Source: Planctomycetota bacterium
GTDB taxonomy: Bacteria > Planctomycetota > Planctomycetia > Planctomycetales > Planctomycetaceae
Length of the DNA stretch: 64,000 nt
Reading direction: 5' to 3'
NCBI GenBank assembly: GCA_016872645.1
Contig: VGZH01000009.1
Location: forward strand, 1 to 64,000
Positions 380 to 5,099 of this stretch are shown here, piece by piece (the stretch's first letter is position 1; every line of letters starts with the position of its first letter). The notes under the pieces were generated by a model. That model was not told where the DNA came from, did no database searches, and saw only the letters and a list, made by a program, of their open reading frames with translations. A program made the position numbers and the translations under genes.

Positions 380-1375
380 TCAAAACTCAGTCACGACTTC
401 TCGATTGGATTTGGTTCCAATAGCTCGCCAAGTCGAGAGGCTAATCGTCGAATTGATGAATCGCGTGGCCCCATCGGCCATCAGCGTGTGAACTCCACCC
501 GCGTGAAAACTGCGGGCCGCGAAGTATCCCGGATATGACCACAATTCACATTCGTGGTTGCTTTGAGCGACGTCATTGGGGCGAAACGATGTCGTGTAGG
601 TCCACGATTGATTCGAAACGGCCATAAACCACGAATAACCCCGCCCAACGGTTCCGCCGGATCCTCCAGAAGCACTCCAATTGTTTGTCACTGGGGGGTC
701 AGCACCTGCCTGACAGGCGGAATAATTACCAGCATTTCCTTCATAGCGATAAACCCACGGTTCATTAATTTTGCATTCGGAAACAATCATCGTCGAGGAA
801 GTACCATCCCTCACCTCGGAGATTCGAGTATTGGAGTTGATGGACATGACATTTTGCTTTGAGAGACCGTCATCGGTATTCCCCAAGCACGTCACATAGT
901 TCGTCGGAGCATAGGCCACCGAAGAACCAACCATCTTTCCATCGGTCGGGCAGATGTATCCCGCAATGCGCGTTCTCATGATTGTCGCATGGGCTGCGGC
1001 ATCACCGGGATAAAGTTTCCAGTTGATTTTCTTCGAGGTTTCCGACTGATCCAAAAAGGGCAGAATCCGAGCCTGCCAGCTCAACATGCTGGTGGCCCAT
1101 GAGCCACCGGCAAAAGTGAAGTCCCGAACGGAGCCCGGCGGGAACGATTGGGACTGATCAATATAGTTGTGAATCGCCAAGCCGATTTGCTTGAGGTTGT
1201 TCTTGCACTGACTGCGCCGCGCTGCCTCGCGAGCTTGTTGCACGGCCGGGAGCAACAAGGCAATCAAGACCGCAATGATGGCAATTACCACGAGCAATTC
1301 GATCAATGTGAATCCGGCTTGTTGTTTTGGGGAAAGGCTCTTCACAACAGATCTCCGAAAGATGAAACGAACCAA
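380..1375 (-). CDS. DUF1559 domain-containing protein with prepilin-type N-terminal methylation motif
   Basis: N-terminus [53 protein letters not shown] is the planctomycete DUF1559 pilin-like signature; C-terminal [18 protein letters not shown] matches the H-x-G-G-x-x-x-x-x-x-DG box. Confidence 0.95.
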
Positions 1376-1403: not shown

Positions 1404-1868
1404 TTACCGACCGCGGGGGGCTGACGGCGCGGAGACTCGCGGCTTTACTCCTGTCTCCAGATCGAAATTCTGATTGGTATTTTCCCCTGCCTTCAACGTC
1501 ACCTTTAACGTTGTTTCGGCGTTGTATTTCTCGGGAATGTATTGCTCGACTTCTTTCATCGGTGTTGCTGGCGTGTTGTTCAGAGTTTCCGCCGGGGCGA
1601 CCGTTTTGCCTGTCTCTCGTGTTCCAAATATCGCAACCACGTATTGCCCTTCGACCAGTCCAGCAGAGCGGGGGATTTCATAGGTTCCGTCCTTGATCTG
1701 TGAACCAATCGTTCTGGCATCGTTTACATCGACGGGATCAAATCGAATCGACCCTGTGGCGACGGCTTCGCCAGCGTACTTGACGGTTCCACTGGCCGAT
1801 GCCGGAGGACGCTTGCTTCCACAGCCCACCAAGACTGCCAACAGTAATACCAACATCCAACGAGACAT
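1404..1868 (-). CDS. Small lipoprotein, carboxypeptidase-regulatory-like/transthyretin-like (planctomycete type)
   Basis: Start trimmed to MSRWMLVLLLAVLVGCGSKRPPASASGTVKYAGEAVATGSIRFDPV, giving a lipobox VGCGS. The gene lies just upstream of the codirectional DUF1559 gene, as is common in planctomycetes. Confidence 0.85.
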   Translation of the reverse strand: MSRWMLVLLLAVLVGCGSKRPPASASGTVKYAGEAVATGSIRFDPVDVNDARTIGSQIKDGTYEIPRSAGLVEGQYVVAIFGTRETGKTVAPAETLNNTPATPMKEVEQYIPEKYNAETTLKVTLKAGENTNQNFDLETGVKPRVSAPSAPRGR

Positions 1869-1938
1869 TTTGAATCGAAACCTCCGACACGCGTTTTGTT
1901 GCGATTCGGCATTACAATTCCGAGAGAGCATTCGGTCA

Positions 1939-4794
1939 ATGTGGCTTGGGGAATTCTTCGTGTGGACCTTACGTCGGTTTACTTTGCTGCTGTTCGTGGT
2001 CGTGGCCGGAGGAGTGCTGTTTCGGCCGATTTCCTCGCCAGAGTGTTGGTACGAAATGTGTCGTGGCGGTGTGGTGCTCGATGGATTTCTTCGGCCATCG
2101 CATCGGTTATTAATCCAGGAGTCGTCGGCCGATGCGAATTGGTTGGGTGGTGTCCCGTTTGCCGTTTTGAATGCCTTGGGAGGAATTTCCGGGTTGATGA
2201 ATCTCAAAGTACTCATCGGGGCATTCGTCGCGGCCCGATGCTGGAGATTGACTGGTTGTTCCCGATCACCTCAAACCTGTTGCTGGCTGTGCTTGGCATT
2301 GTTGGCCAACCTGGCGAACTGGGACGTTACGGCCTCGCTTTGGGATGTGATCGGACTCGTGTTGCTGTTTGAGTGTCTACAAAAAGACCGGACTCCCGGT
2401 TGGCGAGAGTTCGTGGTTCTTTGGATCTGGGCTCAGTTGGGGACGCTGGTGGTTGTCGGACTGGCGACGTGGTGCCTAGTTCGTATTTTCGAGCCATTCG
2501 ATCCGACGATCGGGGGACAGATTCTGCTTCGTGATCGCTGGCGTTGGGGAACATTGGCCATTGTCGTGTGCCAATTGACGCCGCGTGGAGTTCATACGCT
2601 TTTGGATTCACTACGGCTGGCCGTCCCACGACTGTTTGAGGACGGCTCAATGCTGGCTGAAACAGAATGGCGTCCATTGTTCTTGGCGAATTGGGACGTT
2701 TCGCATCTCGGCTTTCTCATTTTGGCCGGAAGCTCAATCGGCGTGGCGAGCCGGAGACCGATGTCGTTTCCACGAATCGTCCTAGTTTTGTTGGCGTCAG
2801 GAATGGGACTGCTGTGCCAACGGCATATCGGCATTGCCAGCATCTGGTTGCTGATGTTGTTGACATGCCAAACGCAACATGGAGTTTTGAGTCCAATTCA
2901 GCTCTCGTCGAGTCGGCCACGCATCATTGATTCCGCCTGGGGATTGGCGATGACCGTATTGGCAATCGTGTCCTGGTGGCCGATTGAGGGACGACGACCA
3001 GGTTGGGGACTTGATCCGCGAGTTGATGAGAGGTTGCTTGGGGACGCGATCTCAACGACTTCTTGGAAAGGGACCATTTGGGCAGACGACATTCTGAGTG
3101 CCGGAATGTCGCTGTGGGTGACAAATCAACGAGTCCGCGTGCATGACATCCCCGAGCGGGCATTGCTCGGCGGACGGTTGACGGAGTTTGTCCGCTTGAG
3201 GCGCGATCTCGAACAAGGCCGCCTGATGGCCTATCGCCGCGAGGATCAATCTGCCGGTGGTTGGTGGCTTCCGCTGCGGGATCGCGACACGGACTTAATA
3301 GTTGTCGGCGCGGAACGGACCCAACTCATACGCAGTCTCGAACCAACTCTTTGGAAGCCGTTGTCGTTGGATTCCCCTGTCTTGCCGTTCGGAAAATCGG
3401 GGGAACACGATGTCTCACACCGAATTGTGGACGTGCTGCGACAGCGCGACTTCGTGGAGAACCAAAACTGGTCACCCAGTCTGCTTGGCGCCGCTGGTAA
3501 CGATCGATGTTGGGATGTTTGGGGGGTGCTGCGTGTCTCAGCCAATGTCGAACAAGAATTGCGACAAGCGCGAGTCCTTCAAGCTTTTCAATTGCCGCGC
3601 GCGGGATTGCGTTTGGTGGAGTCGGCCATGCGAACATCGTCCTGGCGATCTCTGGCAGTTGAAGCGACGAAATGTCGGCGAGAACTCGACTTCGATCTGA
3701 CCGCTCACCCTGGTCCCAGCGTAGCGGACTTAAAACTCCAATCGCCCGATCTGAAACGTTGCGGTGCGTGCCATGCCGAGCAGACGAAGCACTTTGGCGA
3801 TGCCGGCCATCACAACACTCTTCGACCACTTGATCGCGAACGTGCTTCGGAGGTTTTCGGTCCCACAACGTTGACGGACCCCGTCGAGGTGTCGGACGTC
3901 CGAATGTCGTGGAAGGACGACACCAGCCAATGTGTGTCGTCGTCCCGTCAGATCGAGCGGGGCATTCCGCTGCAATGGCTGTTTGGTTCGGGGCGACATG
4001 CACGCACGCCGGTCAGCCTGTGGATCAACTCGGACGGACGCGCGGAAGTTCTGGAGCATCGTCTGTCGTGGTATCCACCTCACCAATGGAGCACAACTTT
4101 GGGTCTGAAGGAGACGACGTTCGGAACCTCGCCCGCCACGGGATTCCCCGGAAAAGACGTGCGACGTTCGCTTGAGTCATTAGGCAAGATTCACGACCCC
4201 GCCGCGACTCGCGATTGCTTTGGATGTCACACCACGCGGTCACCAATTTCCGACGATCAACGGTTCGTTAATGACCAACCTGTTGTTTTGGGCGTTTCCT
4301 GCGATCGCTGTCATCCCGGCAGTGCTGATCATGCTCAACACCAAGACCATGGATCGGCGATTCGGCCATTCGACAATTGGCAATCGCTTTCGCCATTGGA
4401 ATCGGTCAATCGCTGCGGCGAGTGTCATCGACGGGCGGACCACTTCACGCCCGACGAATTAAATCCCGACAATCCGTTGTTGCTTAGATTCGCTTCCGTC
4501 GGACTGGTGCAAAGTGCCTGTTTCCGCCGACAGACATCCACACCTTCAAAGCCGACGTCTCGCTCCCAACGCAATCGTTTCGACTGCATCACCTGCCATG
4601 ACCCACATAGGCCCCTGGAAACTGATGCCGCTGTTTATGCGGCGCGATGTGCCGATTGTCACTCCGCCGATGCGCCACGGTGTTCGCAACAGCCCAATGA
4701 TTCCAACTGCCTGCCCTGCCACATGCCGAAAGTCGAAGTTCAACCTCCATTACGGTTCACAGACCATTGGATTCGAGTCAGAAAGTCTCCGTGA
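1939..4794 (+). CDS. Polytopic membrane protein with C-terminal multiheme cytochrome c domain (seven CXXCH)
   Basis: Start trimmed to MWLGEFFVWTLRRF. N-terminal half has many hydrophobic segments; C-terminal part contains CGACH, CFGCH, CDRCH, CGECH, CITCH, CADCH, CLPCH. Confidence 0.85.
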   Translation: MWLGEFFVWTLRRFTLLLFVVVAGGVLFRPISSPECWYEMCRGGVVLDGFLRPSHRLLIQESSADANWLGGVPFAVLNALGGISGLMNLKVLIGAFVAARCWRLTGCSRSPQTCCWLCLALLANLANWDVTASLWDVIGLVLLFECLQKDRTPGWREFVVLWIWAQLGTLVVVGLATWCLVRIFEPFDPTIGGQILLRDRWRWGTLAIVVCQLTPRGVHTLLDSLRLAVPRLFEDGSMLAETEWRPLFLANWDVSHLGFLILAGSSIGVASRRPMSFPRIVLVLLASGMGLLCQRHIGIASIWLLMLLTCQTQHGVLSPIQLSSSRPRIIDSAWGLAMTVLAIVSWWPIEGRRPGWGLDPRVDERLLGDAISTTSWKGTIWADDILSAGMSLWVTNQRVRVHDIPERALLGGRLTEFVRLRRDLEQGRLMAYRREDQSAGGWWLPLRDRDTDLIVVGAERTQLIRSLEPTLWKPLSLDSPVLPFGKSGEHDVSHRIVDVLRQRDFVENQNWSPSLLGAAGNDRCWDVWGVLRVSANVEQELRQARVLQAFQLPRAGLRLVESAMRTSSWRSLAVEATKCRRELDFDLTAHPGPSVADLKLQSPDLKRCGACHAEQTKHFGDAGHHNTLRPLDRERASEVFGPTTLTDPVEVSDVRMSWKDDTSQCVSSSRQIERGIPLQWLFGSGRHARTPVSLWINSDGRAEVLEHRLSWYPPHQWSTTLGLKETTFGTSPATGFPGKDVRRSLESLGKIHDPAATRDCFGCHTTRSPISDDQRFVNDQPVVLGVSCDRCHPGSADHAQHQDHGSAIRPFDNWQSLSPLESVNRCGECHRRADHFTPDELNPDNPLLLRFASVGLVQSACFRRQTSTPSKPTSRSQRNRFDCITCHDPHRPLETDAAVYAARCADCHSADAPRCSQQPNDSNCLPCHMPKVEVQPPLRFTDHWIRVRKSP

Positions 4795-5099
4795 ATCGTA
4801 TTTCAACTCAGGGCTCTAAGTGTGCCTGGCCATTCGCCACCGATTTTTTGGAGTGCCCCCCGTTTTTGTGCGCGCCGAGAAGCGTAAATTGCGAACGAGT
4901 CCTCAACGCCGTGACCGAGTTCATCGACCACCACAAAGACTTGAAGGGCAAGTCCCGACTGTCTTATGCCTTATGCGCTCCTGGGCGACGGAATGGACCT
5001 GAAAACCCACACGCACAAACTGATTCAAGGGAACGCTGCGGCAGTCTGAATTCTTCGACTGACTTGATCGCGAATTCGGTGCGCAGAGAATCACCGCAC

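Follow-up and report, generated by a model that had tools for sequence, protein, structure and literature searches.

What does it mean that one planctomycete gene encodes both a polytopic membrane protein and a cytochrome c with seven heme-binding motifs, and is the gene a genuine fusion or an artefact of assembly? The gene lies in the window analyzed here, a stretch of 64,000 nucleotides (contig VGZH01000009.1, positions 1 to 64,000, assembly GCA_016872645.1). The original prediction described a single ORF with a hydrophobic N-terminal half and seven CXXCH motifs in its C-terminal third, an architecture that it could not assign to a named family.

A single reading frame with seven heme-binding motifs

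Translation of positions 1939-4794 yielded 951 uninterrupted residues with exactly seven CXXCH motifs, and all seven motifs listed in the original prediction were recovered: CGACH (residue 608, DNA position 3760), CFGCH (760, 4216), CDRCH (788, 4300), CGECH (826, 4414), CITCH (883, 4585), CADCH (904, 4648) and CLPCH (924, 4708). When the protein was shuffled 5000 times, CXXCH occurred 0.03 times on average and twice at most, so that chance does not explain the seven motifs of the real sequence. The frame remains open further upstream, as far as a TTG at 1693. A fused homologue in a second genome begins at a position matching the ATG at 1939, which is taken as the probable start, the TTG being less likely. 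The features of the locus are summarized in Table 1.

Table 1. Features of the fused gene and its neighbours, in positions of the window
Feature	Position	Strand	Remarks
DUF1559 (PF07596) protein with pilin-type N-methylation motif	380..1375	-	Recurrent neighbour of the gene pair
Small lipoprotein gene, lipobox LVGC	1404..1868	-	Divergent from the fused gene; also beside the fused gene in G005
Fused gene, predicted GT-C-fold membrane half and heptaheme cytochrome c	1939..4794	+	951 aa; same fusion in G005 (L031 9364-12240)
Polytopic membrane region, residues 1-346	1939..2976	+	~11 TM helices in the model; AlphaFold models, Foldseek GT-C matches
Mixed alpha/beta tail of the GT-C half, residues 350-587, predicted extracytoplasmic	2986..3699	+	Alignment and AlphaFold model
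Fusion junction, residues 588-607	3700..3759	+	Without the TPR tail of the membrane partner and without the N-terminal anchor of the cytochrome
Heptaheme cytochrome module, residues 608-951	3760..4791	+	Motif positions, conservation, Pfam, full-length model

The fusion recurs in an independent genome

A separate assembly of the same genus (G005) encodes the same fusion as a protein of 959 aa, with 56% identity over residues 8-949 and no internal stop; it is the sole full-length homologue among 59 relatives. Within the genus, the membrane half is present in 2/12 genomes, the window's own (G000) and G005, and it is fused in both. These are the two genomes with the fusion among the ~170 searched in the family, as the wider search of 170 family genomes revealed no third case. 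One candidate in G341, reported as an open frame of 1112 aa, was rejected because a TAA lies between the two genes.

The window stems from a draft assembly in 213 contigs, and the two halves are separate genes in most relatives, as would be expected if an assembly or sequencing artefact had joined two genes. However, the independent genome carries the identical junction, so that an assembly error would need to have occurred identically in two assemblies, and both the frame and the codon-position composition run unbroken through the junction. We regard an artefact of this kind as extremely improbable. For the specific error envisaged in the original prediction, a sequencing error joining two ORFs near 3600-3750, the junction in G005 excludes it. 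Sequence comparison gives good support for reading 1939-4794 as a genuine fusion of two genes that together form a conserved module.

In relatives, the two halves are neighbouring genes

In related genomes, a membrane protein of ~700-780 aa and a heptaheme cytochrome of ~365-410 aa are encoded by adjacent, codirectional genes, usually with a 4-nt overlap, and the pair occurs in one bacterial family, in at least 15 of its genera. The original prediction, made from the sequence alone, could not reveal this arrangement. In the main group (memA), the membrane gene comes first; in the other, more divergent group (memB; L037, L042, L043, L047), the cytochrome gene does. At 35/37 membrane-gene loci, chosen in part because both genes matched, the cytochrome gene is adjacent, fused, or separated by only a DUF1559 gene. 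An unbiased figure was obtained from a phylum sample of 294 genomes searched with the membrane half alone. Here, 16/294 genomes matched, and in all nine strong matches (E < 1e-100) the cytochrome was encoded by the next gene, by the same fused gene, or just beyond a DUF1559 gene, with this strong form restricted to the window's own family. Overall, the fusion is rare and the underlying pairing common in the family. The plasmid collection contained a single distant match, in Granulicella, and the phage collection none; in the literature searched, we found no description of the gene pair or of the fusion.

Several unfused membrane partners carry recognisable C-terminal TPR repeats, and each of the unfused cytochromes checked (20/20) has one N-terminal hydrophobic TM anchor segment that is absent from the fusion. 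In the fused proteins, the membrane homology stops near residue 587 and the heme module starts at 608. Judged from this alignment, the fusion has lost both the TPR tail and the cytochrome anchor, and since the anchor is gone, export and anchoring of the fused cytochrome would depend on the membrane half.

Trees of the membrane and cytochrome proteins contain the same main groups, and each places the fused pair, with modest support, next to L131-L134 or close by. The two distance matrices correlate at 0.74, a value reached by 0/2000 permutations, and this congruence may also stem from species history. Exceptions are L032, L033 and L036, with a divergent cytochrome beside a DUF1559 gene and a second, more typical cytochrome nearby. 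As a separate observation, the same three loci contain a conserved four-gene block (TPR, FG-GAP/UnbV-ASPIC, FG-GAP/UnbV-ASPIC, TPR) between two heptaheme cytochrome genes (L032 5391-11066, L033 9892-15737, L036 8556-14270), and similar FG-GAP proteins occur beside other copies.

The membrane half is predicted to adopt a GT-C fold

In line with the original prediction, Pfam, NCBIfam and PDB sequence searches returned no named family for the whole protein or its N-terminal half, and the membrane half gave nothing above chance. Its AlphaFold model, built with 15 sequences, reached a mean pLDDT of 83.6 and a pTM of 0.84; a separately computed full-length model reached 79.2 and 0.61, respectively. 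When the membrane-half model was compared with the PDB using Foldseek, the credible matches were all GT-C proteins (yeast and human STT3, ArnT, PglB, AftA, Pmt4, AftD), and the full-length model again retrieved PglB, DPY19, ArnT and STT3. Over the two models, E-values were 6.5e-5 for STT3, 6.6e-5 for PglB, 1.1e-4 for DPY19 and 2.2e-4 for ArnT, with TM-scores of only ~0.3-0.5. A GT-C fold of the membrane half is strongly supported by these models.

With the GT-C superfamily (STT3/PglB, ArnT, PMT, DPY19, AftA), the membrane half shares the predicted TM bundle, an EL1 helix (a short helix at residues 36-48 in the EL1-like loop of the model) and the extracytoplasmic tail, in which W393, G440, G441, W472 and W511 are invariant. 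It differs by a sequence identity of ~10%, the lack of a Pfam match, an EL1 acid that is not conserved, and the heptaheme cytochrome that it carries or is paired with. A further parallel is provided by the TMTC-type eukaryotic O-mannosyltransferases, which combine GT-C with TPR, as the unfused membrane partners with their C-terminal TPR likewise do. In contrast to TMTC, the pair described here is bacterial, its EL1 acid is not conserved, its partner is a cytochrome, and the fused form has no TPR.

The phylum also contains unnamed homologues of the membrane half of ~545 aa and ~1090 aa (profile E ~1e-8 to 1e-15). These GT-C-like proteins have a similar EL1 layout; the longer form also has TPR, and the shorter form retains the EL1 Asp, at a position that varies in the paired proteins. 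No cytochrome was seen beside those inspected, where the available flanks were short. Such proteins recur at L089, L092, L093, L095, L097 and L098 (~545 aa) and at L090 and L096 (~1090 aa, with TPR), and no Pfam domain was detected in the membrane part of those scanned.

Hydropathy and the positive-inside rule gave no clear orientation for the membrane half. In GT-C enzymes, the active loop and the C-terminal domain lie on the extracytoplasmic side, which would place the soluble tail and the hemes of the fusion in the periplasm. From this fold homology and the anchors that the unfused cytochromes carry, a periplasmic location appears most likely.

The C-terminal module resembles c554/NrfA/MccA-type cytochromes

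The heme region reached the Pfam cut-offs of cytochrome c554, c7 and c3_2 families (PF13435, PF14522, PF14537). For PF13435 (c554), the score was 24.6 bits against a gathering cut-off of 20.8, with partial coverage (residues 752-792). A cytochrome profile, whose alignment included one DUF1559 protein, gave local matches in the PDB to 6i5b (which we take to be OcwA), MccA, c554 and NrfA. Among 22 cytochromes, counted with the DUF1559 protein excluded, all seven CXXCH motifs are invariant (22/22), as are five further His residues (H624, H687, H798, H890, H943) and two non-heme Cys residues (C861, C915), the latter representing a possible disulfide or metal site. The genome also encodes a member of the cytochrome assembly family PF01578.

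Based on these profiles, the cytochrome half is classified as a divergent member of the c554/NrfA/MccA-type multiheme cytochromes. While it scores at or above the cut-offs of the c554/c7/c3 types, it is distinguished from them by its seven hemes, a beta-rich insert between hemes 1 and 2 in the full-length AlphaFold model, the two invariant non-heme Cys residues and the fusion to a membrane protein. With MccA and NrfA it shares a local profile match including a CHMP...DH motif; however, this match is partial, the heme count differs and no special catalytic heme motif is found. Such motifs are CX2CK in NrfA and CX15CH in MccA; both are absent from the window's cytochrome, in which all seven are CX2CH. 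A selenocysteine was also considered, since one weak match in the PDB was to a 'multiheme cytochrome c selenoprotein' and relatives had in-frame TGA codons. The idea was rejected: in L017 and L101, the TGA proved to be the ordinary stop codon at the C-terminal end, and all relatives inspected have Cys at the invariant position.

Could the cytochrome half be a periplasmic reductase of the MccA/NrfA/c554 type in which one heme site is open, while the membrane half acts as no more than an anchor? The profile matches to the four PDB proteins and the invariant C861 and C915 are compatible with this, and with five distal His residues for seven hemes an open heme site is possible. Other ligands are possible as well, since Met or Lys might act in place of His; moreover, the similarity is local and weak, and neither the CX2CK nor the CX15CH motif is present. 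We consider this explanation unlikely.

Further heme proteins were observed in the window's genome and its relatives. A second, unfused heptaheme cytochrome gene (L041 8324-9484, G000 contig C10) follows a gene for a type II secretion F protein at a distance of 7 bp, and the same locus (1488-4886) encodes a protein of 1132 aa with two CXXCH and a match to the hydrazine synthase alpha middle domain (PF18582, 1.6e-12). In genus relatives, a different cytochrome with seven hemes, which ends in a TPR-like region, is encoded beside the solo heptaheme gene (L044 5605-7758, L046 10262-12154).

Membrane scaffold, glycosyltransferase or quinol-linked enzyme

The original prediction proposed that an inner-membrane protein with its own multiheme module could be an electron conduit or a quinol-linked redox enzyme. 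The heptaheme module, most probably periplasmic, is retained from this proposal, and an electron conduit role for the cytochrome part is possible. For the second alternative, in which the membrane half would oxidise quinol and feed the hemes, the predicted topology does set the hemes near the membrane on the periplasmic side. However, the predicted fold is GT-C rather than NrfD, NapC or cytochrome b, no Pfam or fold match to NrfD, NapC/NirT or cytochrome b was found in the membrane half, and none of its His residues is conserved among 28 relatives, which argues against a b-heme or quinol enzyme. This part of the proposal is very unlikely to hold.

The fold itself raises the alternative of a membrane half that still works as a polyprenyl-phosphate-dependent glycosyltransferase on an exported protein, plausibly the neighbouring DUF1559 pilin-like protein, with the cytochrome providing redox control or a redox step. 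STT3, PglB and Pmt4, which it resembles in fold, modify proteins; a DUF1559 gene of the system type is present at about half of the loci; and the acidic EL1 residue is retained as E35 in the window protein and as D/E in 17/28 paired proteins. Against this, the fused sister has Asn at this position, and the paired proteins that lack the acid carry N, G, S or C there, whereas 6/6 short unpaired relatives have Asp, and the memB proteins of the cytochrome-first loci lack most of the EL1 region. To our knowledge, no known glycosyltransferase requires a multiheme cytochrome. An active enzyme of this kind seems rather doubtful, and the EL1 comparison favours a changed or lost transferase activity. 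This reading concerns one loop position, and the other conserved acids of the paired clade suggest that some activity may remain: D65, D136 and D223 are conserved there, with D136 and D223 absent from the unpaired relatives and the acid at D65 kept.

A recurrent DUF1559 neighbour

In G005, DUF1559 and small lipoprotein genes are arranged as in the window, divergent from the fused gene; the window's lipoprotein had no Pfam match. A DUF1559 gene scoring at least 370 was found at 19/37 membrane-gene loci, between the two genes in three of them, using a profile built from ten pair-associated copies that are themselves among the 19 loci. As DUF1559 proteins are abundant (37 to 131 copies per genome), single neighbour cases mean little. 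With DUF1559 genes spaced at about one per 55-155 kb, recurrence at the loci is nevertheless unlikely by chance, with the loci not being independent of each other. The DUF1559 pilin-like protein is probably a third component or a client of the pair. DUF1559 is apparently restricted to Planctomycetes, with 68 copies in Planctopirus limnophila (PMC10632474). Its presence in the window therefore points to a planctomycete as the host.

Functional interpretation

The architecture and the conserved pairing are well supported, and for the function we infer the following. The last helix of the GT-C half would deliver the chain to the periplasm, where the soluble tail and then the seven-heme domain would fold. 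The GT-C half, its transferase activity probably weakened or lost, would serve mainly as a membrane scaffold or docking site that holds the cytochrome to the inner membrane on its outer side. Electrons could pass from a periplasmic donor through the cytochrome to an acceptor or substrate, and as two hemes may be without a His sixth ligand, a reductase site for small molecules is conceivable.

We give roughly even chances to this explanation, in which a GT-C-fold membrane scaffold, perhaps non-catalytic now, provides the docking site for a heptaheme module that serves electron transfer or acts as a reductase in the periplasm. As the best explanation, it draws on the fusion in G005, the conserved pair, the Foldseek matches to GT-C proteins, the anchors, PF01578, the heme conservation, the agreement of the trees and the incomplete conservation of the EL1 acid. 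More tentatively, and with somewhat less than even confidence, the GT-C fold may have been recruited as membrane partner of a periplasmic heptaheme cytochrome, forming together with DUF1559 an undescribed planctomycete redox or envelope-modification system in which sugar transfer or pilin handling would be coupled to electron transfer.

GT-C proteins are known as sugar transferases, and we know of no GT-C protein that works with a multiheme cytochrome, nor was one found in the literature searched. The fusion suggests that membrane proteins of the sugar-transfer type and electron carriers form a pairing that has so far gone undescribed. As a 'Rosetta stone' for the gene pair, it predicts a direct and testable physical complex of the unfused partners, and the recurrent DUF1559 neighbour would give a first hint at the function of a paralogue family that ranks among the largest unexplained ones in planctomycetes.
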